A DNA stretch of 10,245 nt, from positions 1 through 10,245 of the forward strand of contig MELI01000086.1 of the NCBI GenBank assembly GCA_001767575.1. Reading direction: 5' to 3'. The notes below the pieces were generated by a model, which saw nothing but the letters and a program-made list of their open reading frames with translations, was not told where the DNA came from and ran no database searches. The translations under genes and the position numbers were made by a program. Shown piece after piece: positions 1 through 10,245 of the stretch. Positions within the stretch are counted from its first letter, which is position 1. Each line of letters starts with the position of its first letter. The DNA is from Candidatus Aquicultor primus (GTDB lineage: Bacteria > Actinomycetota > Aquicultoria > Aquicultorales > Aquicultoraceae).

Positions 1-492
<492 letters not shown>

Positions 493-573
493 TTAATCAT
501 AGGTTTTAAGAAGGAGGCTATCATTGGACGGCGGGACAAAGTATTTTAGGCGTGGGTTATACAGGGGGATAAA

Positions 574-618
574 TCAGGGCATCCATGGGGGCCGGAATGT
601 CCCGCATGGATGCCCTGA
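574..618. repeat. Perfect 14-bp inverted repeat (stem-loop)
   Basis: The arms TCAGGGCATCCATG (574-587) and CATGGATGCCCTGA (605-618) are exact reverse complements around a 17-nt centre, whose GGG (588-590) and CCC (601-603) could extend pairing. Neither strand has a U-run after the stem, so this is not a canonical intrinsic terminator. The right arm is also the first codons of the GGDEF remnant, so the left arm may be an inverted copy of that coding sequence made by template switching. A role as a processing or attenuation hairpin between the cyclase gene and nifH is also possible. Confidence 0.8.
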
Positions 619-709
619 CGGCATTGAAAATCGCAGGTCGCTCGAGAGCGTACTCGATGATGAACTGAAGCGCGCCGCGCAACAGGGTTCGCCGGTGTCG
701 CTGCTCGCA
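597..709 (+). pseudogene. Frameshifted, truncated GGDEF (diguanylate cyclase) domain remnant
   Basis: Reading from the ATG at 597, frame one gives MSRMDALTALK (to 629). A one-base shift then gives NRRSLESVLDDELKRAAQQ and GSPVSLLA (629-709). Joined, these match the start of GGDEF domains, which normally read D-x-LTGLxNRR-x-LE, then L-x-x-E-x-x-RA-x-x-x-G-x-P-x-SLL-x-x-DID. One base appears deleted at 627-628, between the Leu codon and the Asn codon. Similarity stops at 709, before the DID metal site and the GG(D/E)EF signature, so no cyclase activity can remain. A plausible ribosome binding site (511-517) and TTG start (524) lie upstream in the frame of the second half, perhaps the original 5' end after an internal deletion. 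It is the only plus-strand gene trace in the window and points away from nifH. The assignment rests on pattern recognition of a short segment. Confidence 0.6.
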
Positions 710-723
710 ACATCCCCGCTCTC

Positions 724-1350
724 TTACTGTCTAAGCACAACCCTTGCGGGGGCGCCATCGGCGCCGATAACCTTTAGCGGCAAGCATACTATCTCATATG
801 GGCCCTGGCTCACGCTCGATAGATCCAAGCCCTCGATAACCACAATTCCGCTCTCTAGGAACGCATGGTGAACGTCGACCCCATCTTCATACGACCCAAC
901 GGATAAGTAATCGATACCCACAAGTTTGACGCCCTTTCTTACCAAAAACTCAGCCGCCTCGATCTCGAAGGATACGTAGTCCGGCGTAAACTCCTCTTTC
1001 GACCAGAGCATCGAGTTTCTCGTCTTGAATAGTATCCTCTTGCGGCCGCGCAGATCGAGCACCTCTAAATCGGCGAGGGATATGCTGCTCTGCACCTGAA
1101 GTTCAAAGACAAACGCTTCACCGATTAGTATATCAAGCGGCAGTGTATCGACGGACGGAGCGCCTTTTATGAAGTGGGCCGGCGCATCGACGTGCGTGCC
1201 GACATGGCTTCCCAGTTTCATGACGGATACATTGGCGTCTGCGCCCTCTTCGAGCGTTTGATAGGGTGATATCTCGAATCCTGGGTTGTCCGGCCACACC
1301 GGCATCGATGGTTGCAACCCGACCGAGACGTCATACATCTTCTGTTGCAT
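724..1350 (-). CDS. Cyclase-family / kynurenine-formamidase-like metal hydrolase
   Basis: This 208-residue protein has the usual length of the cyclase family (Pfam PF04199), whose members include bacterial arylformamidase KynB, polyketide cyclases and isatin hydrolase. The metal-site signature HVGTHVDAPAHF spans residues 49-60, giving ligands His49, His53 and Asp55, with His59 nearby. A later His161 and Glu173 fit the remaining conserved metal/catalytic positions, so the site looks complete. There is no signal peptide, so it should be cytoplasmic. The ATG at 1350 has AAGGAG (1360-1365) 9 nt upstream. It lies 34 bp after the Cys-rich small gene and is probably co-transcribed with it. No tryptophan-degradation gene is present, so the substrate cannot be named; another cyclic amide or ester is as likely as N-formylkynurenine. 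Confidence 0.88.
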   Translation of the reverse strand: MQQKMYDVSVGLQPSMPVWPDNPGFEISPYQTLEEGADANVSVMKLGSHVGTHVDAPAHFIKGAPSVDTLPLDILIGEAFVFELQVQSSISLADLEVLDLRGRKRILFKTRNSMLWSKEEFTPDYVSFEIEAAEFLVRKGVKLVGIDYLSVGSYEDGVDVHHAFLESGIVVIEGLDLSSVSQGPYEIVCLPLKVIGADGAPARVVLRQ

Positions 1351-1384
1351 CGCAGATAACTCCTTTAACCAACTACTCTGCGTT

Positions 1385-1708
1385 CTAACCGTTTTGCTCG
1401 GCGCTACCTTCCCGGCAATAACGGTATGATTTTAAGTTGTGCTCCTGGTGAACAAGGCAGGTGTCGCATATACACCCCTGCGCGAAATCCAAATCATCAC
1501 ATGAAGCCTTGCCCACCGCTTCGGCGCAGTAAAGCCCCGGCATCATCCGCGGCTCCGGCATCCCGCCCCCATCCATGGATTGCATCTGCTCTTTCATCTG
1601 CATCATCTTTTGGATTTTCTCCTGGGCGCAAGCGCTATCCGCTTGCACGGGACATTTGGCGCATTGGCACTTGCCCGCATTATCCATATTGTAATCGACT
1701 ATTGGCAT
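1385..1708 (-). CDS. Small Cys- and Met-rich protein resembling DUF2769
   Basis: This 107-residue cytoplasmic protein has ten cysteines arranged as two similar blocks: C-x-C-x-x-C-P (14-20, with Cys27) and C-x-C-x-x-C (79-84, with Cys98 in YRYCREGSAE). Cys61 and Cys70 lie between. The C-terminal block, ending in a Y-C-x-x-G-x-A pattern, resembles the uncharacterised DUF2769 family, which I recall from methanogens and other anaerobes. Between the blocks is a methionine-rich, probably helical linker (residues 35-56, eight Met). The spacing suits binding of a metal or Fe-S cluster, but nothing here proves it. The ATG at 1708 has AAGGAGG at 1716-1722, 7 nt upstream. A candidate promoter lies just before it, and the cyclase-family gene follows after 34 bp. 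The function is unknown. Confidence 0.8.
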   Translation of the reverse strand: MPIVDYNMDNAGKCQCAKCPVQADSACAQEKIQKMMQMKEQMQSMDGGGMPEPRMMPGLYCAEAVGKASCDDLDFAQGCICDTCLVHQEHNLKSYRYCREGSAEQNG

Positions 1709-1798: not shown

Positions 1799-2167
1799 TT
1801 ACTTACATCTGTCAGCTTTTATCGCTGCTTCAGCCTCTCCAACAGAGCTAAATACTTTAATGCCCACACAATCAAAGATGCCAAAACGCTTAAGCTTGTT
1901 CATGAGCCCGGATTCGGGCTTAACTATCGCTGCCATATATATACCGATTCTTGTAAGCTCTTGGAGGTAATAGATAAGCGTCTCAATCCCGGCTTCATCC
2001 ATGTAAGTGACACCCGTAAGATCAACTATGACGCCATTGCAGCTTTCTGTGAGTATTTCTGGAAGAAGGCCTTGTGCCCGATCTTGATCGGAGAGGTCAA
2101 ACTCTCCGGAGAGGGTAAGCATATTTACGTTGGGAACACCGACCTTCTTAAGCTTAATATCGATCAC
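1799..2167 (-). CDS. STAS-domain protein (anti-sigma factor antagonist-like) lacking the phospho-Ser
   Basis: This is a single STAS domain, the fold of SpoIIAA/RsbV anti-anti-sigma factors, which bind an anti-sigma kinase when unphosphorylated. Seen here are the opening strand and turn MLTLSGEFDLS, the central strand GVIVDLTGVTYMDEAG, and the following helix and strands to the C-terminus. Classical members read D-S-S/T/A-G after the central strand, with Ser phosphorylated by the kinase; this one reads Asp-Glu-Ala-Gly and has no hydroxyl residue there. I chose the GTG at 2165-2167 (122 residues) because AGGTGA lies 5 bp upstream and the STAS fold begins right after it. The reading frame is open to an ATG at 2239 (146 residues), but that start has no ribosome binding site and would overlap the phosphatase gene by 86 bp. 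The chosen start overlaps it by 14 bp, implying translational coupling. Confidence 0.87.
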   Translation of the reverse strand: MIDIKLKKVGVPNVNMLTLSGEFDLSDQDRAQGLLPEILTESCNGVIVDLTGVTYMDEAGIETLIYYLQELTRIGIYMAAIVKPESGLMNKLKRFGIFDCVGIKVFSSVGEAEAAIKADRCK

Positions 2168-4598
2168 GCGGTTCACCTGCCAGTGAAATAGCGAGAATAG
2201 CAATGTCATCCAAGAGTTTGCCGCCAGAGTAGGCCACAATATCGTTATATATCGCCTGGGGTATTTCTTTGACCGGTATTTCTTGCGCTTGCGTCAGAAA
2301 ATCGATCAGCCTCTCTTCTCCATAGAATTCCTCATCACGGCGGGCCTCGGTGACGCCATCGGTATAAAGTACTAAGCTATCGCCTTTTTGCAGATAGGTC
2401 TCTTCTTCTGTGTAGCTCATGTCCGCAAATGCTCCGATGATTGGCGAGTGTTCCCTGAGGAGTTCTACACCGGCTGCTTGGTGCAGTATAGCCGGGGGAT
2501 GTCCGGCTGAACAGTAGGTGAGTTTGCCCGTAGCCGTATCGAGCAGGCCGAAGAACACTGTGACAAAGGAGGCCGGACCCGATGCCAGCCTCACCGCCTC
2601 GTTGGCCTTTGCTATGATCTTTGACGGGCAATGGCCATCCAAAGCGTACGCTCGAATTGTGCTTCTAACCACTGATGTTAATGTTGCCGCCTGTAGCCCT
2701 TTTCCTGAGACATCCCCGAGGGTGATGCCCACTCTGCCGCCTCCCAGCTCAAAGAGATCGTAAAAATCACCACCGACTTTTGCGCCTTCAGTTGCAGAGC
2801 GGTACATGTATCCATATCCAAGCCCATTCATACCCTCGGGCACAGTAAGAAGCGCCTCTTGCAGGGTATCTGCGATACGTCGCTCCGCCTCATATAGGCG
2901 GGCATTTTCAATTGCAACTGCTGCTTGAGCGGCAATACCTTCAACGAGCTCGATATCACGCTCTGTAACGTTTTGTCGTTCACCCGGATTATCAAGAGCC
3001 AGAATGCCCAGTACATCTCCCTTATAAATCAGCGGCACCGATAGCGCTACCTTAATATTTAGCGACTCGGCACGCTGCCTATTTTCTTCTGCGACATCGG
3101 CTGACTCGTAGTCGATGACTCTTGACTGCTTATCGTATACAACACTTTGGAATTGCGGTGCCAATTGCTTAAAATTAAACTTCGAGCCAACCGGTAAGAT
3201 GGACTCACCCCGTGCGGCTCCGGCTTCCAGCTCATAGGTCTTCTTATTTAATAAATAGATGCCGATGCGGCGGCTTCCGGTAACATCAAGAACGATATCG
3301 GCAAGGGACTCGAGCACCCCATTTAAATCAATCGGCTCCGCAAGGGTATCGGCTGCCCTTAGAAGCAAGTTCGAAATCTCAAGCTCGTCTTCAACTTGCC
3401 GGTGAAGCCGCTCGCGTTCGTTCTCAAGTTGCTTCTGCTCGGTCACATCGCGAAAGACGAGCACGACGCCGATAATGGCTCCGTCAAGCGCCCGGATAGG
3501 AGCACAGCTGTCGGCGATGCTCCTCTCAGTGCCGTCTTTTGCGATAAGCGCGGTATGATTGGCAAGCCCAACGACCACACCGGTTTTAAGCGCTTTGTCG
3601 ACGGGGTTCTCGGCCGGCTCTCTCGTTGTTTCGTTTATGATGTCAAATACCTCCAGAAGAGGCTTGCCCTCCGCTTCTTCCTGCGTCCAGCCGGTGAGCT
3701 CTTCCGCAACACCATTGAGAATGACAACATTCGCATTGACGTCGGTCGCTATGACCCCGTCGCCGATGCTTCCTAGAGTTACGGAGAGGCGCTCTTGCTC
3801 TGCATGGAGCGCCTGCTGGGCGGCCTCGCGCTCGGCAATCTCCACCTCCAGCTCCGATTTGGAAGCCGTGACGCCTTTCAAATCGGCTGTCATCTGGTTG
3901 AAGGCATGCGACAATTCACCGATTTCGTCGTCGCGCTTAACTTCAAGCGCAAAATCAAGGTTACCGGAACCAATAACTTTTGTTCCGGCCTGGAGGTCCG
4001 CTATTGAACTAAGCAAACGACGCTGGACAATCAGATAATTGGTAATGAAATAAGCGCTAAATGCACCTAGCAGGATAAACATGAGTTGATTGTTCGTATG
4101 CCTCACTTGATCTTTTCGGTCGCGTATGATCTGAGACAGCTGCAGGGCATCAAAGGCTATTCCCTGGTTTTGCACTGCCATCCGGCTCCATGAGACCTGA
4201 GTAAACGACTGTACGGACTCAGCAGCCGGGGTCCGCGTTGTGTCATGAGAAGCCGATGCCACGTTATCGAAGACCGCTTTCAAGCGCAGATGATTAGCCT
4301 TGATGTTGTCGGCTATGATCTGCTGCTCGGGACTACTGGGTTTCAGTTGTGCCAGATCACGGGAGATTGAAGACCATTTTGTTTCCCACCGTGTGCGTTG
4401 TTGATCTTCGCGGAAGAGAAGATAATCGTTAGATAAATAACTAAGCTCACTAGCCCCCCGCTCGATGCTAATGGCAATCTCTTCCTGCATATTAAGGCGC
4501 CCTATCTGCTGAATTGTCCATAAGACCGAAACTGCGACAATCAGCAGGACTAGGCCGGACATGATCATGGCTACGATAAACTGGGTCCTGATTCTCAT
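2154..4598 (-). CDS. Membrane sensor serine phosphatase: TM-sensor-TM-HAMP-PAS-GAF-PP2C (SpoIIE/RsbU type)
   Basis: This 814-residue protein should act as a membrane-bound switch phosphatase for a STAS partner. In order: TM1 (7-29), an extracytoplasmic, probably helical sensor segment (about 32-170), TM2 (172-191), HAMP (192-245), a coiled coil (about 245-275), PAS (271-391), a linker helix (391-410), GAF (405-567) and a SpoIIE-type PP2C domain (585-807). The metal-binding motifs are intact: VGGDFYD (608-614), GDVSGKG (628-634), YTDGVTEA (745-752) and DDIA (797-800), so it should be active. There is no kinase domain. The ATG at 4598 lies 6 bp after the stop of the upstream binding-protein gene, with a weak AGGGA overlapping that stop, and its 3' end overlaps the STAS gene. 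The position suggests the external segment senses something delivered by the two lipoproteins encoded just upstream; that link is inference. Confidence 0.95.
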   Translation of the reverse strand: MRIRTQFIVAMIMSGLVLLIVAVSVLWTIQQIGRLNMQEEIAISIERGASELSYLSNDYLLFREDQQRTRWETKWSSISRDLAQLKPSSPEQQIIADNIKANHLRLKAVFDNVASASHDTTRTPAAESVQSFTQVSWSRMAVQNQGIAFDALQLSQIIRDRKDQVRHTNNQLMFILLGAFSAYFITNYLIVQRRLLSSIADLQAGTKVIGSGNLDFALEVKRDDEIGELSHAFNQMTADLKGVTASKSELEVEIAEREAAQQALHAEQERLSVTLGSIGDGVIATDVNANVVILNGVAEELTGWTQEEAEGKPLLEVFDIINETTREPAENPVDKALKTGVVVGLANHTALIAKDGTERSIADSCAPIRALDGAIIGVVLVFRDVTEQKQLENERERLHRQVEDELEISNLLLRAADTLAEPIDLNGVLESLADIVLDVTGSRRIGIYLLNKKTYELEAGAARGESILPVGSKFNFKQLAPQFQSVVYDKQSRVIDYESADVAEENRQRAESLNIKVALSVPLIYKGDVLGILALDNPGERQNVTERDIELVEGIAAQAAVAIENARLYEAERRIADTLQEALLTVPEGMNGLGYGYMYRSATEGAKVGGDFYDLFELGGGRVGITLGDVSGKGLQAATLTSVVRSTIRAYALDGHCPSKIIAKANEAVRLASGPASFVTVFFGLLDTATGKLTYCSAGHPPAILHQAAGVELLREHSPIIGAFADMSYTEEETYLQKGDSLVLYTDGVTEARRDEEFYGEERLIDFLTQAQEIPVKEIPQAIYNDIVAYSGGKLLDDIAILAISLAGEPRDRY

Positions 4599-4604
4599 AC
4601 TTCC

Positions 4605-5645
4605 CTATCTTGCTCGAATGATATTGACCGATTTGGGCTTTACCGCCATGACAGCGTCTTCGTAAATATAATCCAGGAAATCGGGGACGGACTTTTCAGC
4701 GGTAAGGTTGTTGGCTATCATCCAGCGCGCCTGGTCTTCCATCGCGAGGATAAAAGACTGGTCGAGCCGGAGAGAAAACTCGTGTTCGGGCCAGATTGTT
4801 TTGATATACCCATCATCGTAATCCAAACGTTTTTGCACAATGGCTCTACCTTGGCCGGGATTCTGAATTACGTAATCCTCGGCCTGCTTGAGCGCGTTCA
4901 GGAATCGCTTTATCGCCTCAGGATTCTCTGTTGCCAGCTTGCCGGTAGTGACAACGGCGCAATACATCGGTTGTCCGCTTTGAACAGACCAAATATTCGC
5001 CTGGTCGCCCAATCGATCTTTGAGGGCCAGCACATTGGGCTGCCAGGCCACGACAGCGTCGACTTCTCCGTTTATCAGGGCGTCTACGGCTTGAGGAGCT
5101 TGGACATCGACGATACTTATTTCGTTCTTATCGAGGTCGTGCAAGTCGAGGAACCGGCCGAGTTGGAAGTCTGCCGCCGATTTCAACGGCACCCCGATCC
5201 TCTTTCCCTTAAGATCAGAGATATTCTCAATTCCCAGATCTTTTCGGCCAATCAGCTTCATATGCATAAACATGTCAATACTTCCAAGCGTTTGAATATC
5301 TTGCTGTACGAACGCTTGTCTAACAATGGCAAACTCAGCCGCAGTAGCAACGTCTACCTCACCTTTCAGCATGCCCTCGGCCGCGATTGCACCCGATGGG
5401 TAGTCGTCTTTAATGGTTACCTTAAGACCATTGGCCTCGAAATACTTCTGGCTCTCGGCGATATAGATAAGTGAATTGACCGAAGTGGCCTCCATTCCAA
5501 CGGTTATCGACTCGACCTTCCCGGGGTTGTTTTTGCGAGAATTCCGGGAATTCCCTGCACAACCAGAGGCCAGCGTAACGACTGCGACGATTGCGATAAA
5601 CACTATCGTCAACCGCTTAAGAGACTGCCTATTGATCGATTTCAT
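4605..5645 (-). CDS. NMT1/TauA-type periplasmic binding lipoprotein, second copy
   Basis: This is a type-2 periplasmic binding protein of the NitT/TauA (NMT1/THI5-like) group, whose relatives bind nitrate, sulfonates, bicarbonate or pyrimidine precursors. A lipoprotein signal is clear: basic start MKSINRQSLKRL, hydrophobic core, then L-A-S-G-C with lipidated Cys29. Family features include YPSGAIAAEGMLKGEVDVAT, KGKRIGVPLKSAADF, and the hinge-side DALINGEVDAVVAWQPN. I chose the ATG at 5643-5645 (346 residues) because AGGGGG lies just upstream; a TTG at 5660 would add five residues. It sits 21 bp after the paralogous gene and 6 bp before the phosphatase gene, so it is part of one operon. No cognate permease or ATPase is present. 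It shares with its paralogue an extended C-terminal region (L-D-Q-S, EDQARWM, then P-x-x-V near the end). The ligand is not known. Confidence 0.92.
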   Translation of the reverse strand: MKSINRQSLKRLTIVFIAIVAVVTLASGCAGNSRNSRKNNPGKVESITVGMEATSVNSLIYIAESQKYFEANGLKVTIKDDYPSGAIAAEGMLKGEVDVATAAEFAIVRQAFVQQDIQTLGSIDMFMHMKLIGRKDLGIENISDLKGKRIGVPLKSAADFQLGRFLDLHDLDKNEISIVDVQAPQAVDALINGEVDAVVAWQPNVLALKDRLGDQANIWSVQSGQPMYCAVVTTGKLATENPEAIKRFLNALKQAEDYVIQNPGQGRAIVQKRLDYDDGYIKTIWPEHEFSLRLDQSFILAMEDQARWMIANNLTAEKSVPDFLDYIYEDAVMAVKPKSVNIIRAR

Positions 5646-5666
5646 CTTATCCCCCTGCAATTTGTC

Positions 5667-6710
5667 CTATCTGCCGACCATCCTGACAGCCCCGGGGCGT
5701 ATTGCTTTCAAGCCGTCGGCATACACGTGATCCGCGAAATCATGCGTTCTTTGAGCGCTGTTGTCGTCCCCGCTGCTTACCATCCACCGTGCCTGATCTT
5801 CCAGATTTACTATTAGGCTCTGGTCTAACTCAGCAGTGAAATCGTAATTCTTCCATTCCTCCGCGTATAGCGGGCTATCCGTACCGATATATTTTGCTGA
5901 AATAGCGCGCGCCTCAGCGGGATCGTCTTTAATATAACTGTTCGCCCGGATAATAGCACGTAAAAACCTCTTGACGGTTTCGGGTCTCTTTTCGGTGAAT
6001 TCCTTTTTTGCCACAGCGTTCCAGGTCATCGTATAGAAATTCGGCTCTTCCAGGACAACCGCATTGCCGCCAAGCCTGTCACGGAGCTGAATCGTAAAAG
6101 GCGAACAGGTACTTACGGCGTCGACCCTTCCGTTGACTAGAGCCTCAACCACCTCATCCGGTTCAAGATCAACAACGTGAACGTCCTTCTGATCAATATA
6201 GGAAGTTGTTAGATAGATATGAAGGAAGAAATCGGCGCTAGTCCCTTTTACTCGGCCGACTCGCTTTCCTATGAAGTCGTCGGGCTTAGAGATATTTCTG
6301 TCGTTCCTCGCGATAATTAAGATCGCCCTGTCAATCTCGGATAACGTGGCGACAACCATGGCCGGTTTGCCATTGACGGCGGCACGGGCGATCGACGTAT
6401 CTCCGCATGTGGCGACATCAATCTTTCCGGTAAATAAGTCAGCAAGGCCAAGATGACCTGAGGGATACTCGCGAAGAGTCTCCTGCAATCCTTCATCCCT
6501 GAAGTATCCCTTCTCGTGAGCTACATAGACAGCGGCGGACGCAGGCCAGGGTGTCACGGCAATACTTATCTTTTCCGCCTCGTCGGCGGGTATGCGCGAA
6601 GTCGGCTTGGTGCAGGAGGTAAGCGTGACTATCAACACTAAGATCAGCAGGAGAGCCGACGTTTTTGGTTGGAGCCTAAGCGATGCCAATCTAGTGAGTC
6701 CGACCTTCAC
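5667..6710 (-). CDS. NMT1/TauA-type periplasmic binding lipoprotein, first copy
   Basis: This paralogue of the next gene has the same fold, length and C-terminal extension (AELDQSLIVNLEDQARWM). The GTG at 6708-6710 is preferred over the ATG at 6779: it has an AAGGAGG site 6 nt upstream, and it places the signal peptide normally (basic residues, hydrophobic core, L-T-S-C with lipidated Cys33), giving 347 residues against 346 for the paralogue. The ATG start lacks a ribosome binding site and would add 23 residues of non-signal sequence. Features include the hydrophobic pocket segment AVYVAHEKGYF, YPSGHLGLADLFTGKIDVAT, and DALV-type VEALVNGRVDAVSTCSPF. The last differs from the partner (VVAWQPN), as do several presumed ligand-contacting segments, so the two copies may bind different ligands. 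It is the first gene of the operon; the RAYT unit lies directly upstream. Confidence 0.92.
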   Translation of the reverse strand: MKVGLTRLASLRLQPKTSALLLILVLIVTLTSCTKPTSRIPADEAEKISIAVTPWPASAAVYVAHEKGYFRDEGLQETLREYPSGHLGLADLFTGKIDVATCGDTSIARAAVNGKPAMVVATLSEIDRAILIIARNDRNISKPDDFIGKRVGRVKGTSADFFLHIYLTTSYIDQKDVHVVDLEPDEVVEALVNGRVDAVSTCSPFTIQLRDRLGGNAVVLEEPNFYTMTWNAVAKKEFTEKRPETVKRFLRAIIRANSYIKDDPAEARAISAKYIGTDSPLYAEEWKNYDFTAELDQSLIVNLEDQARWMVSSGDDNSAQRTHDFADHVYADGLKAIRPGAVRMVGR

Positions 6711-6883
6711 TTGCCTCCTCCTTCTCGCTTTGAACTCGGTATGAGTGTTGGCAGCTACATCATTGTAATATTTTAACATAGACGAGAGAGAATAAAAGGA
6801 CCATAAAAGGGTAAAAAGAGGGAGAAAACGGAGAAAAGTAAAAAGGGACGCTGCTACGGCTGTTACGGATACTCTAGGTGCCT
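6711..6883. other. Leader of the binding-protein operon and left end of the RAYT unit
   Basis: The minus strand here must carry the promoter of the four-gene operon. A TACAAT (complement of 6762-6767) matches a -10 at five of six positions, but no good -35 lies at the right distance, so I do not call a promoter. The plus strand from 6781 to 6847 is strikingly purine-rich (about 59 of 67 bases) and abuts the left inverted repeat at 6845-6867. The RAYT gene stops at 6884. Confidence 0.5.
6845..6867 (+). repeat. Left inverted repeat of the RAYT unit
   Basis: The sequence begins GGGACGCTGCTACGG and includes two tandem 9-mers, CTGCTACGG and CTGTTACGG (6851-6868). Its reverse complement matches 7925-7947 with one mismatch. 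It lies 16 bp beyond the transposase stop codon, next to the purine-rich tract. Confidence 0.85.
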
Positions 6884-7852
6884 TTAATCTTGAAATAGCC
6901 CACCCTCACCTTTTTCCAGCCTTATTATGTCATAGATAGTTGATGGGGCAACACCCAGGACTTCAGAAAGAACCCTTGGTGGTGTGCCAAGCTTTTTAGT
7001 TGCATAAAATACAACTGTTGCTCTTGCTTCTGAGACGACTTTTCTTCTGGAGCCGGAATAAAGCTCTGGCAAGCTTAGATTATAGCAAATGGCCACTTTA
7101 TTAAGGAGTTCTTCAAGTGGGCCGTCTTCTTGCGCCCCTATTTCGCTCTTATCAATATCTTTTAGAATAGCCTCGACAAATAGTCCTGAGCCTAATATCC
7201 TCTCATCATATGCTTGAAGACCTCTTTTTGACTCTAGGTCAAGTTTTGTAAGGCTTCTTTTTAAGCCACCACCAATCAGATGAGCCTGTCGGCCTAAAGC
7301 GATGCCGTCGACCATGAACTCTTTCAAACCCTGCCGTGCTCCTTTAAGATTGCGCCCAAAGTTATAAAGGACGTCGTCTACATCCATGAATGAGTACTTT
7401 CTCCGCCCCATCAAGGCTGAATACCCAGTAAAGGGGTAGAGGGCAAGCCTATCTAAATTAGAGACAATGCCGGCTCTAACCGGATTTAGGTGTATATAGC
7501 GGACAAGCTCTAAAAAATACGTATCTTCCTCAACAGCAAAGGATTTATACCGGTTCTGAAATAGATGTCCCGCACGCCTGTGTTTGCGGTTAAAATAGAT
7601 AGCGTATCCAGTTAAAAGACGCCTCATAAAAGTAGGTAGCGGTGTCTTAAGAGGCCTAACGAGTAGGTGCACGTGGTTTGGCATTAAAGCAAAGCCATAG
7701 ACTTTTATGTCCTCTGTCCCGGCAAGGCTAGAGAGCCGACCCAAAAGTTCTTTGTAGTCAGCTTCGCCTCTGAATATCTGTTTTCTCTCTATCCCTCGAA
7801 ATATTACGTGATAGACCAGCCCCGGGATATCTAGCCTTGGTAGCCTTGGCAT
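6884..7852 (-). CDS. REP-associated tyrosine transposase (RAYT), Y1/HUH family
   Basis: This 322-residue protein begins MPRLPRLDIPGLVYHV, the typical start of the RAYT branch of the IS200/IS605 (Y1_Tnp) family: single-strand DNA endonucleases that cut at hairpins through a tyrosine. The metal-binding motif is M-P-N-H-V-H-L-L (His60, His62). RAGHLFQNRYKS (93-104) and EEDTYFLELVRYIHLNPVRAG (109-128) follow, with the catalytic Tyr probably Tyr112 or Tyr119. A C-terminal domain (about 265-312) has the helix-turn-helix LSEVLGVAPSTIYDIIR and resembles the DnaA C-terminal DNA-binding fold seen in many long RAYTs. The frame is intact and the active site complete, so it may be functional. The ATG at 7852 has no clear ribosome binding site but fits the family's start. 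Base composition is more AT-rich than its neighbours. Confidence 0.93.
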   Translation of the reverse strand: MPRLPRLDIPGLVYHVIFRGIERKQIFRGEADYKELLGRLSSLAGTEDIKVYGFALMPNHVHLLVRPLKTPLPTFMRRLLTGYAIYFNRKHRRAGHLFQNRYKSFAVEEDTYFLELVRYIHLNPVRAGIVSNLDRLALYPFTGYSALMGRRKYSFMDVDDVLYNFGRNLKGARQGLKEFMVDGIALGRQAHLIGGGLKRSLTKLDLESKRGLQAYDERILGSGLFVEAILKDIDKSEIGAQEDGPLEELLNKVAICYNLSLPELYSGSRRKVVSEARATVVFYATKKLGTPPRVLSEVLGVAPSTIYDIIRLEKGEGGLFQD

Positions 7853-7858
7853 AAGACA

Positions 7859-7887
7859 AGACTACCCTTAGGATAAAAAAGTGTCAA
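7859..7887 (-). promoter_or_regulatory. Candidate promoter of the RAYT gene
   Basis: On the minus strand a perfect -35 TTGACA (7882-7887) is followed after 17 bp by a weak -10, TAGTCT (7859-7864). The predicted transcript would start at or within a few bases of the ATG at 7852, which agrees with the lack of a ribosome binding site but would mean an almost leaderless mRNA. The -35 overlaps the edge of an imperfect palindrome (7886-7917), a possible operator. Confidence 0.35.
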
Positions 7888-7917
7888 CCATATGTGCTTA
7901 TGTGTAAGTGCATGGTT
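7886..7917. repeat. Imperfect palindrome upstream of the RAYT gene
   Basis: AACCAT (7886-7891) and ATGGTT (7912-7917) bracket ATGTGCTTA-TGTG-TAAGTGCAT. The inner 9-bp arms pair with two G-T wobbles, and the outer hexamers give an alternative register. It lies between the RAYT -35 and the right inverted repeat. It could be a binding site for the enzyme or a regulator, or simply a hairpin in the element's end. Confidence 0.5.
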
Positions 7918-7924
7918 TAGCTAA

Positions 7925-7947
7925 CGTAACAACCGTAGCAGCGTCCC
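7925..7947 (-). repeat. Right inverted repeat of the RAYT unit
   Basis: On the minus strand it begins GGGACGCTGCTACGG and continues TTGTTACG, where the left copy has CTGTTACG; this is the single difference over 23 bp. Outside it lie two GTAAAC units (minus strand GTAAACGTAAACG), and the left flank keeps only a degenerate version of these. Confidence 0.85.
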
Positions 7948-8002
7948 CGTTTACGTTTACCCGCTTATTAGAGCCTGGCATATACGCTTATAGCTAAAGC
8001 TG

Positions 8003-8668
8003 CTAGGCAATGATCGATCCGTCCTTAAGACGAACGGTACGTTTCGCGTGGCGGGCGATTTCTTCCTCATGGGTAACCATGATAATGGTCTTTCCCTGTG
8101 AATTCAGTTCGGCAAAGATCTCCATGATCTCTTCGCCCGTCCTGCTATCGAGGTTGCCTGTTGGCTCATCCGCCAGGACAATGCTCGGGTCGTTCACCAA
8201 CGCCCGAGCAATGGCCACCCGCTGGCGTTGACCGCCGCTTAGCTCCTGCGGCAGATGATGAAGACGATCGCTCATACCAACACGTTCCAATAGATCCCGT
8301 GCACGTTGGGGGCTGCTCTCGATTCCGCTATATAACAGCGGTAGTTCAACATTTTTTAAGACGTTGCTTCTCGGCAGCAGATTGAAGCTCTGAAATACAA
8401 AGCCGATCTCGCGATTGCGAATCATGGCGTGATCATCCTCACTGAGATCGGTAACATCTCGACCGTTAAGCGAATAGGTGCCATCGCTCGATTTATCCAG
8501 TAGGCCGATGATATTCATTAACGTCGTTTTTCCCGACCCCGAAGGGCCCATTAGTGAGATAAACTCACCCCGCGCTACAGTGAGGTTGATATCTTTAAGC
8601 ACCGGTATAGACTCAGAGCCGAGGCTATAGCTTTTACATATATTCTGGGTTTCGATTACCGGTTCCAT
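8003..8668 (-). CDS. MacB/LolD-type ABC transporter ATP-binding protein
   Basis: This stand-alone nucleotide-binding subunit (about 221 residues) belongs to the MacB/LolD/FtsE-like group, which drives FtsX-type permeases to export or extract substrates by a mechanical cycle. All motifs are present (numbering from the ATG): Walker A GPSGSGKT (41-48), Q-loop FVFQSFNLLP (Gln93), signature LSGGQRQR (143-150), Walker B IVLADEPTGNLD (163-174) and the H-loop His200. The family-typical N-L-D after Walker B is intact. The ATG at 8666-8668 overlaps the upstream stop as TGATG; a GTG at 8671 is the alternative and adds one residue. It is co-translated with the membrane fusion protein gene. The expected downstream permease is missing: the RAYT unit begins about 55 bp after its stop. 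Confidence 0.95.
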   Translation of the reverse strand: MEPVIETQNICKSYSLGSESIPVLKDINLTVARGEFISLMGPSGSGKTTLMNIIGLLDKSSDGTYSLNGRDVTDLSEDDHAMIRNREIGFVFQSFNLLPRSNVLKNVELPLLYSGIESSPQRARDLLERVGMSDRLHHLPQELSGGQRQRVAIARALVNDPSIVLADEPTGNLDSRTGEEIMEIFAELNSQGKTIIMVTHEEEIARHAKRTVRLKDGSIIA

Positions 8669-10245
8669 CACTCTTTCATCTCTTCCTCTTTAATGACAAC
8701 CTTTTCACCTAGGGACAGACCGTGCTTAACCTCAACGGACGATCCGTCTGTCATTCCTACCTCGATTTCCTTTACGACCGATTTGCCCGCGTCGCCGTGA
8801 ATGGTTACCGTTGGTTTACCGTTTGTCCTCGTAACGGCTTTGACCGGTATAGTAAGTACGTCTCTTGCTTCCTTGATAATAAAGTCTACATGAGCGGTCA
8901 TGCCGTCCTTGATTTTATTTGTCTTATTATCGACGACGACACGAACCTGATATGTGACCACCCCGTTCTGGTCGACCTTCGCTCGACCTTCGATACTCTC
9001 GACCGAGCCATAAAACTCTTCTCCTTCAAGGGCGTCAAACGCCGCCCTAATTTTTTGGCGGATAGAGATCTTGGCGATATCTATCTCCTCAACCTGGGCC
9101 TCAATCATCATACGGTTCACGTTGCCGATGACCATAAACGGCTCGGCTGTGCCGCCCGTACTCTGACCACCTGCGGTCTCTCCCTCTTTGCCATTGACGG
9201 CAAGCACAACACCGTCAACAGGAGATAAAAGTGTTGCTTCATCCAGTGCCGCTTCGGCACCCTGCACTACAGCGCCGGCCTGGTTTACAGAAGCACGTGC
9301 CGATGAGATCTCGCTGCTACTTACCGGCTCAAGAGTTATCTCTAATTGGGCCTCTGCCGTCCTTAATTGGGCCTTTGCGTTATTTAACTGCGTATCCTTG
9401 GCAGAGAGCTGTTCTCTGGAAAGCCGGCCGGCCTTGTATGCGTCATACGTGTAATCATACGCCGATTGCGCGTCGGTTAATGCTATCTTGGCATTGTTTA
9501 TGGCGACCTGCTTGCTGGTGATCTCCGCCGATGTAGCTCCTTCGAGCGCTATGCTTAGTTGAGCTTGCGCCGAATCAAGCTGGGCTTTTGCACTGTTAAG
9601 CTGGCTCTCCTTTAATAAAACCTTATCTATAAGAGCGCTGCTCGTACTGGTGCTGGCGTTAGATTCATCCAGCGCGTAATCATATGCTTTTTGGGCGTCA
9701 TCAACGGCAATCTGCGCGTTGGTAACCGCGGTCTGTTTACTAGAAACCGTGGCAGATGAAGGGCCTGCGCTTAATACGTTCAGCTGCGCCTCAGCCGAAT
9801 CGAGTTGCGCCTCCGCATTGTGAAGCTGTGCTTCCTTCGACATCAACTGTTCTTTTGATAACCGACCGGCTTTATATTCGTCCAGAGTATAGCTATAGTC
9901 TGCTTGCATATCGGCCAGTGCGATTTCGGCGTTCTCTACGACAGCACGCTTGCCGGCAACCTCAGCATCGGACGGGCGATCTTTTAGCGCACCGAGCTTA
10001 GCCAAGGCGCCGGAGTAGCCTGCTTTTGCTTGCGATAATTGAGCGGCTGACTTGCGCGAATCTAGCTTTGCGAGCTTTTGACCCTTCTTAACTGATTGCC
10101 CTTCTTCGACGTAGATTTCAGATACCGTACCGCCAGTTGCAAAACCAAGGTTTACAATCGAATCGGCAACGGCCCGTCCATCAGCGGTAGTGGCTATTTG
10201 GATGTCGGCCTTTACTACCGGTATCACCTTGCCCCCTTCTACGTC
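8668..10245 (-). CDS. MacA/HlyD-type membrane fusion protein, 5' end beyond window
   Basis: This periplasmic adaptor subunit works with the ABC ATPase gene that follows. The reading frame is open to the window edge (525 residues visible), and the N-terminal membrane anchor is expected outside; the GTG at 10227 is therefore probably internal. Numbered from that GTG: a first half-lipoyl segment (23-57, GGTVSEIYVEEGQSVKKGQKLAKLD), a long coiled-coil hairpin (58-330), the second lipoyl half (LLSPVDGVVLAVNGKEGE, 333-350), a beta-barrel domain (about 362-450), and a membrane-proximal domain with IPVKAVT (460-466) that ends in GEKVVIKEE. The hairpin is built of three tandem units of about 70 residues and is far longer than in typical MacA. 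The stop TGA overlaps the ATPase start. The substrate is unknown. Confidence 0.93.
   Translation of the reverse strand, partial: DVEGGKVIPVVKADIQIATTADGRAVADSIVNLGFATGGTVSEIYVEEGQSVKKGQKLAKLDSRKSAAQLSQAKAGYSGALAKLGALKDRPSDAEVAGKRAVVENAEIALADMQADYSYTLDEYKAGRLSKEQLMSKEAQLHNAEAQLDSAEAQLNVLSAGPSSATVSSKQTAVTNAQIAVDDAQKAYDYALDESNASTSTSSALIDKVLLKESQLNSAKAQLDSAQAQLSIALEGATSAEITSKQVAINNAKIALTDAQSAYDYTYDAYKAGRLSREQLSAKDTQLNNAKAQLRTAEAQLEITLEPVSSSEISSARASVNQAGAVVQGAEAALDEATLLSPVDGVVLAVNGKEGETAGGQSTGGTAEPFMVIGNVNRMMIEAQVEEIDIAKISIRQKIRAAFDALEGEEFYGSVESIEGRAKVDQNGVVTYQVRVVVDNKTNKIKDGMTAHVDFIIKEARDVLTIPVKAVTRTNGKPTVTIHGDAGKSVVKEIEVGMTDGSSVEVKHGLSLGEKVVIKEEEMKE
9310..9963 (-). repeat. Three tandem ~70-residue coiled-coil repeats in the membrane fusion protein
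   Basis: Units run about 9751-9963, 9526-9750 and 9310-9525 (residues 89-159, 160-234 and 235-306 counted from the GTG at 10227). Each has a Lys-containing start (for example SKQVAINNAKIAL), a YxYxxDxY-like turn with AGRLS(K/R)EQL in units 1 and 3, then a heptad run of the type LNSAKAQLDSAQAQL and a short G/P/S linker. The middle unit replaces the turn with a Ser/Thr-rich stretch and is about four residues longer. The pattern indicates internal duplication of an alpha-hairpin. Confidence 0.8.

Follow-up and report, generated by a model that had tools for sequence, protein, structure and literature searches.

Membrane receptors that are driven by a solute-binding protein (SBP) are well known. 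LuxP-LuxQ, TorT-TorS and ChvE-VirA are SBP-receptor systems akin to XylFII-LytS; all four have histidine kinases as outputs and employ SBP families other than NMT1. In XylFII-LytS, the SBP docks on LytS, whose fold may resemble the four-helix bundle predicted for the outer segment of the receptor studied here. The latter differs from these systems as it is a PP2C/SpoIIE membrane phosphatase from Candidatus Aquicultor primus, and it is encoded in one operon with two NMT1-type lipoproteins and a STAS protein. The operon lies in the window, i.e. the whole stretch of DNA that was analysed, which comprises bases 1-10245 of contig C86 (14,700 bases). The corresponding assembly, denoted G000, is fragmented and has a size of 1.79 Mb. 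The arrangement of the operon is well supported. It probably encodes an SBP-gated PP2C phosphatase, for which we infer docking, ligand gating, the direction of control and the target.

According to the excerpt available of PMC9602780, SBPs drive chemoreceptors, sensor kinases, enzymes of cyclic di-GMP (c-di-GMP) turnover and Ser/Thr kinases, and a PP2C phosphatase is not among the SBP-driven receptor outputs given there. Many SBP-activated kinases are encoded beside their SBP, as stated in the available part of PMC11113362. In NspS-MbaA from Vibrio cholerae and Sinorhizobium, as far as the partial accounts go, a periplasmic binding protein likewise controls a membrane enzyme; it differs from the system in the window by its polyamine ligand and its c-di-GMP output. 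The PP2C_SIG domain is shared with RsbU/SpoIIE-type phosphatases and with SiaA from Pseudomonas aeruginosa, in which it follows two membrane-spanning regions and a HAMP domain. SiaA acts on SiaC, which resembles anti-sigma-factor antagonists and is phosphorylated on Thr68, and no SBP partner is mentioned in the excerpt of the paper (PMC7647112). With the terms used, open-literature searches yielded no paper on an NMT1 protein with a GGDEF cyclase, and in the excerpts that they returned no SBP was paired with a SpoIIE/PP2C receptor. A preliminary description of the operon had stated that no described system of this composition was known to its author. This was too broad given that SBP-gated receptors are established (PMC9602780, in excerpt), while the PP2C phosphatase output seems to be a new element.

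Gene order and domains of the operon

All four genes are located on the minus strand in the order lipoprotein 1, lipoprotein 2, HAMP-PAS-GAF-PP2C membrane phosphatase and STAS protein (Table 1). The two lipoprotein genes are separated by 21 bp, the second of them and the phosphatase gene by 6 bp, and the phosphatase and STAS genes overlap by 14 bp. The preliminary description had given this arrangement as well as the lack of a transporter permease or ATPase in the operon, and both were borne out by the reading of the sequence and, for the four genes, by Pfam matches. A NitT/TauA-class permease was absent from the whole 14.7-kb contig. Concerning the components of a NitT/TauA transporter, the SBP type was found twice (PF09084); the permease and the ATPase of the class were not in the operon. 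Promoter and terminator scans of the window remained within about one standard deviation of shuffled sequences. Contigs C86, C7 and C40 contain short runs of masked bases (N or X), none of which is within the window sequence.

Table 1. Coordinates of the operon genes and their features in the window.
Feature	Position	Strand	Description
Lipoprotein 1	5667..6710	-	NMT1/SsuA-TauA-type SBP, 347 residues; PF09084 E 2.1e-31
C-terminal segment of lipoprotein 1, LDQSLIVNLEDQARW	5784..5828	-	pattern of receptor-linked SBPs
Lipoprotein 2	4605..5645	-	NMT1/SsuA-TauA-type SBP, 346 residues; PF09084 E 7.4e-31
C-terminal segment of lipoprotein 2, LDQSFILAMEDQARW	4722..4766	-	pattern of receptor-linked SBPs
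Membrane PP2C/SpoIIE phosphatase	2154..4598	-	814 residues
Extracytoplasmic receptor segment, residues 31-172	4083..4508	-	predicted four-helix bundle
HAMP, residues 193-240	3879..4022	-	PF00672
PAS, residues 270-389	3432..3791	-	PF00989/PF08448
GAF, residues 424-563	2910..3329	-	PF01590
PP2C/SpoIIE catalytic domain, residues 620-805	2184..2741	-	PF07228 E 4.3e-51
STAS protein	1799..2167	-	122 residues from GTG start overlapping phosphatase gene by 14 bp; PF01740 E 4.9e-13
Glu58-Ala59 (GAA GCC)	1991..1996	-	site of Ser/Thr after loop Asp in related STAS proteins

Lipoprotein 1 has a GTG start preceded by AGGAGGAGG and the lipobox LTSC, lipoprotein 2 an ATG start preceded by AGGGGG and the lipobox ASGC. 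In NCBIfam, both were nearest to the SsuA/TauA type, yet under every cut-off listed. Lipoprotein 2 is 33% identical to lipoprotein 1 and 50% identical to a lipoprotein encoded on contig C7 of the same assembly. Lipoprotein 2 and the C7 lipoprotein were also the best non-self matches of lipoprotein 1 in a search of its own genome and 60 related genomes. An AlphaFold2 model of lipoprotein 2 with lipoprotein 1 as sole partner row had a mean predicted local distance difference test score of 36.6 and was not used.

In the phosphatase, a segment of about 140 residues lies between two hydrophobic stretches, one at about residues 5-30 and the other at about residues 172-190. The four acidic PP2C motifs, known as the metal-site motifs, are all present with GGDFYD, GDVSGKG, DGVTE and DDIA at residues 609, 628, 747 and 797. 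Sequence matches in the PDB include Rv1364c, with which the catalytic domain aligns, SpoIIE and others. For residues 1-250, the PDB sequence search gave seven matches, namely six to HAMP regions and one that was meaningless. In the fold comparison of the receptor segment, LytS was the best natural receptor match to the predicted bundle, though bundles match widely. The match lists also include the sensor QseE in complex with the lipoprotein QseG, which would agree with lipoproteins that clamp the receptor in the apo state or report envelope stress to it, like in other lipoprotein-kinase pairs, and that do not present a ligand. Such a role is very improbable as the NMT1 profile spans both lipoproteins nearly end to end, and as two copies with 33% identity would better suit two ligands.

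Recurrence of the lipoprotein-receptor pair

The assembly yielded only four NMT1 genes, two of them in the window, one on C7 and one on C40. Three of the four sit in only two loci, the window and C7, that bear this receptor segment, and thus the adjacency of NMT1 and receptor is more than chance. In the C7 pair (7315-8537), the stop codon of the lipoprotein gene is followed after 11 bp by a second membrane protein at the contig end. Over its first 58 residues, after which it is truncated, this protein shares 57% identity with the N-terminus of the phosphatase (E 3.6e-13), and no continuation on another contig was found in the receptor-segment search.

In a sample of 396 Actinomycetota genomes, just two genomes besides this one had matches to the receptor segment, both from one family. 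When profiles were used and the class of that family (31 genomes) was searched as well, there were six clear places, two in G000, two in G087 and one each in G236 and G294, and an NMT1 lipoprotein gene was directly upstream at four of the six. On contig C7 of G087, the lipoprotein gene is followed after 9 bp by a HAMP-HisKA histidine kinase that carries the receptor segment (E 2.4e-7). On contig C11, a HAMP-GAF-HisKA histidine kinase follows the lipoprotein gene at a distance of about 10-40 bp, according to which start codon is assumed. In G236 and G294, the segment is part of histidine kinases without an adjoining lipoprotein (L202 5367-6908, L207 1231-3701), the upstream reading in G294 covering 1.2 kb. 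Weak hits in G320 (E 4.8e-4; protein layout differs), G012 and G074 (E about 1e-4 each) were excluded from the counts. Of the earlier proposal of sensing by lipoproteins and phosphatase through a local STAS switch, the pairing of lipoprotein and receptor gained support, as three further actinobacterial loci (G000:C7, G087:C7 and G087:C11) show it with a homologous receptor segment; the STAS switch did not. The lipoproteins are most likely read by the membrane phosphatase.

A comparable order was observed in plasmid records of Vibrio sp. THAF191d, Vibrio nigripulchritudo and Pseudoalteromonas xiamenensis (loci L210 5905-8274, L299 3908-6219 and L300 3926-6246), where the gene immediately before that of a membrane GGDEF cyclase encodes an NMT1 protein; Pfam was run on Vibrio sp. 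THAF191d only. Where annotated, these NMT1 proteins are labelled as SBPs of ATP-binding cassette (ABC) transporters. Ten plasmid SBP places were opened, three of which were cyclase-linked and seven transporter-linked; they were chosen by hand and non-randomly from 60 rows listed of two plasmid SBP searches with overlapping records, the second of which matched 362 records. Like the operon in the window, the G087 and the Vibrio and Pseudoalteromonas pairs have NMT1 directly before a membrane receptor and no permease, but their output is a kinase or cyclase and they contain one SBP instead of two. A profile comparison between the outer domain of the Vibrio cyclase and the actinobacterial receptor segment was not significant, and a plasmid search with the receptor segment of V. 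nigripulchritudo returned only the two records of that species. Since the outer domains could not be tied to each other, the gammaproteobacterial NMT1-GGDEF order is regarded as a parallel arrangement and no shared receptor descent is claimed. In a plasmid search with residues 1-250 of the phosphatase, which listed 30 of 31 records, most matches were confined to HAMP and the second membrane helix; among the matches listed, two were long, with 24% identity and E values of 2e-2 and 4e-3.

The receptor-linked SBPs look like a group of their own in sequence comparisons. A C-terminal pattern, L.[NQ][SC][LF].. ending [EQ][AS][RT]W, was derived from the eight receptor-linked SBPs themselves; by construction it is present in 8/8 of them, and it occurs in 0/62 other SBP frames. 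A profile built from six linked SBPs scored 468-522 bits for the five actinobacterial ones and 177 bits for the best other SBP in the 396 genomes, a gap that overstates the separation because these five are members of the profile. In a quick tree of 69 rows, a weakly supported branch (62 in the Shimodaira-Hasegawa-like approximate likelihood ratio test) had all eight linked SBPs on the same side. In the short flanks that were read at 28 loci of next-best SBP hits, a transport ATPase or permease was seen at 18. None of the 28 matched the receptor, PP2C, histidine kinase or GGDEF references in these short flanks, in which antisense frames over the SBP were kept at several loci so that neighbours there may be missed.

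The NMT1 gene on C40 has its own ATPase and permease, and these were used as probes, which detect the C40 and Allorhizobium control loci. No permease match was obtained at any of seven pair loci, with C7 being truncated just behind the pair. ATPase matches near pairs were restricted to a MacB/LolD-type gene in the window contig and one gene 4.6 kb from the G087:C7 pair. The former (8003-8671) is the sole transport ATPase match on C86 and is situated beyond the transposase-like gene described below, grouped with an HlyD-type protein. A role of the lipoproteins as part of a nearby ABC transporter was rejected as the contig is without a permease match. A NitT/TauA permease that regularly accompanies homologous pairs would speak against a sensory operon; none was found at G000:C7, G087:C7, G087:C11 or the Vibrio and Pseudoalteromonas loci, and since the pair loci show no such permease, the sensory reading is retained. 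It is unlikely that the lipoproteins are ordinary transport SBPs for a permease encoded elsewhere and that their adjacency to the phosphatase reflects shared expression only: NMT1 proteins belong to a transporter family, C40 encodes an ATPase-permease set of the class and the assembly is 77.6% complete, but that set comes with an SBP of its own, the recurring pair keeps one receptor segment while its outputs change, a permease was matched at 0/4 actinobacterial loci (including the truncated C7) and the C-terminal segment is missing from all 62 other SBP frames.

Phosphatase cassette, STAS protein and proposed mechanism

The closest relatives of the PAS-GAF-PP2C part are from the same bacterial family; apart from this genome, the twelve best matches reached 37-42%, and four reached 65-67% over the PAS stretch. 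They share the cytoplasmic cassette of the phosphatase. The outer receptor segment had no match in ten same-family genomes searched. Three sister phosphatases were scanned for outer domains; those of G008 and G009 have a dCache-like domain (E 1e-10 and 9e-9, below the Pfam cut-off), and in that of G005 the N-terminus looks similar but has no Pfam match. None of the four sister loci read (G004, G005, G008 and G009) has an NMT1 neighbour. Neither a linked-type NMT1 protein nor the receptor segment was found at these four loci or at 80 phosphatase loci from the genome collection; in control loci, the NMT1 and receptor profiles used do recover the copies already known as well as the C40 SBP. From this distribution, i.e. 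a family-typical cassette with an outer segment that is absent from its relatives, we infer what looks like a sensor swap, in which the output cassette of the family was combined with an input module otherwise found on kinases of a distant family.

The loop of the STAS protein reads Asp-Glu-Ala-Gly (codons GAT GAA GCC GGG). The residue after the loop Asp, which is Glu in the window, is Ser/Thr in 34 and Val in one of 35 further distinct STAS rows taken from the assembly and class relatives (orthologues counted apart). The conserved loop serine is the site of kinase and phosphatase action, as described in the available part of PMC8256260. Because the phosphorylatable Ser/Thr is replaced by Glu, the co-encoded STAS protein is not a canonical substrate and was rejected as such, and the RsbU/SpoIIE-type partner switch through the local STAS protein, as proposed before, did not hold. 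The protein scored 36.0 bits against TIGR00377, below the cut-off of 53.45. Its closest homologue found, on G005:C28, is encoded directly behind a PP2C phosphatase and keeps the Ser; the two G005 genes overlap at the end of the phosphatase gene, like those in the window.

These gene positions would suit a canonical partner switch, in which the ligand-loaded lipoprotein controls the phosphatase, the phosphatase dephosphorylates the co-encoded STAS protein and the latter captures an RsbW-type kinase. RsbW-like proteins exist in the assembly and non-canonical STAS control is known (PMC8256260, in excerpt), but given Asp-Glu-Ala at the phosphosite and Ser/Thr in 34/35 other rows, the G005 partner included, this course is quite improbable. 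The assembly contains eight SpoIIE matches, eight STAS matches and ten HATPase_c_2 matches (eight over the cut-off). All ten of the latter are on other contigs, so that no RsbW-type kinase is beside the window STAS gene. One HATPase_c_2 gene is directly behind a STAS gene on C93, and the seven other STAS genes of the assembly are alternative candidates for the partner. Furthermore, a single open frame of 928 residues (G000:C72 2595-3569) matches SpoIIE phosphatases as well as HATPase_c_2 kinases.

In the SBP-gated phosphatase that we favour, the two membrane-tethered outer lipoproteins would bind small ligands and then dock on the receptor segment with its predicted four-helix bundle. The signal would then pass via transmembrane helix 2 and HAMP to PAS-GAF-PP2C and set the phosphatase activity. 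The substrate would most likely be a phosphorylated, RsbV-like STAS protein encoded elsewhere that feeds an RsbW-like kinase switch of the genome, and the co-encoded STAS protein would more likely be a fixed partner, namely a phospho-mimic, competitor or scaffold. As a more specific and only tentative version, the enzyme may be a two-ligand phosphatase receptor, with lipoproteins that compete or act additively on a bundle grafted to the family cassette, and with the Glu-Ala STAS protein as a pseudo-substrate, i.e. a permanent phospho-mimic, which occupies or tunes phosphatase or kinase while the true STAS substrates are encoded elsewhere. It weighs against the SBP-gated phosphatase, and advises caution on over-reading, that the PP2C version of the pair was seen once, in an actinobacterial metagenome assembly.

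Gene neighbourhood and significance

Downstream on the same strand (window 1-1708), a DUF2769 protein, an arylformamidase-like cyclase and a nifH-like gene truncated by the contig end are encoded. The terminator scan listed no terminator-like site in the interval between the STAS and DUF2769 genes. On the other side of the operon, a REP-associated tyrosine transposase-like gene is located at 6884-7852 on the minus strand (68.3 bits at a cut-off of 80). It is bracketed by inverted copies of GTAACARCCGTAGCAGCGTCCC at 6845-6866 and 7926-7947, one of which is just upstream of the operon. Beyond it follows a separate exporter set (8003-12159) with an HlyD-type fusion protein, the MacB/LolD-type ATPase and a MacB-like permease, as judged by eye.

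If the two-ligand reading is true, the enzyme would be the first SBP-controlled protein phosphatase to our knowledge, and the sensor segment would have been exchanged together with its SBP, as a single module, between kinases and phosphatases, perhaps also cyclases. One SBP-receptor module with different outputs leads to a testable rule for spotting receptor-bound SBPs among proteins whose present annotation is that of a transporter component: the NMT1 protein should contain the C-terminal segment and be encoded next to a membrane receptor, with no permease. If SBPs drive a PP2C phosphatase, small-molecule sensing would directly enter the partner-switch regulation of sigma factors or other targets.
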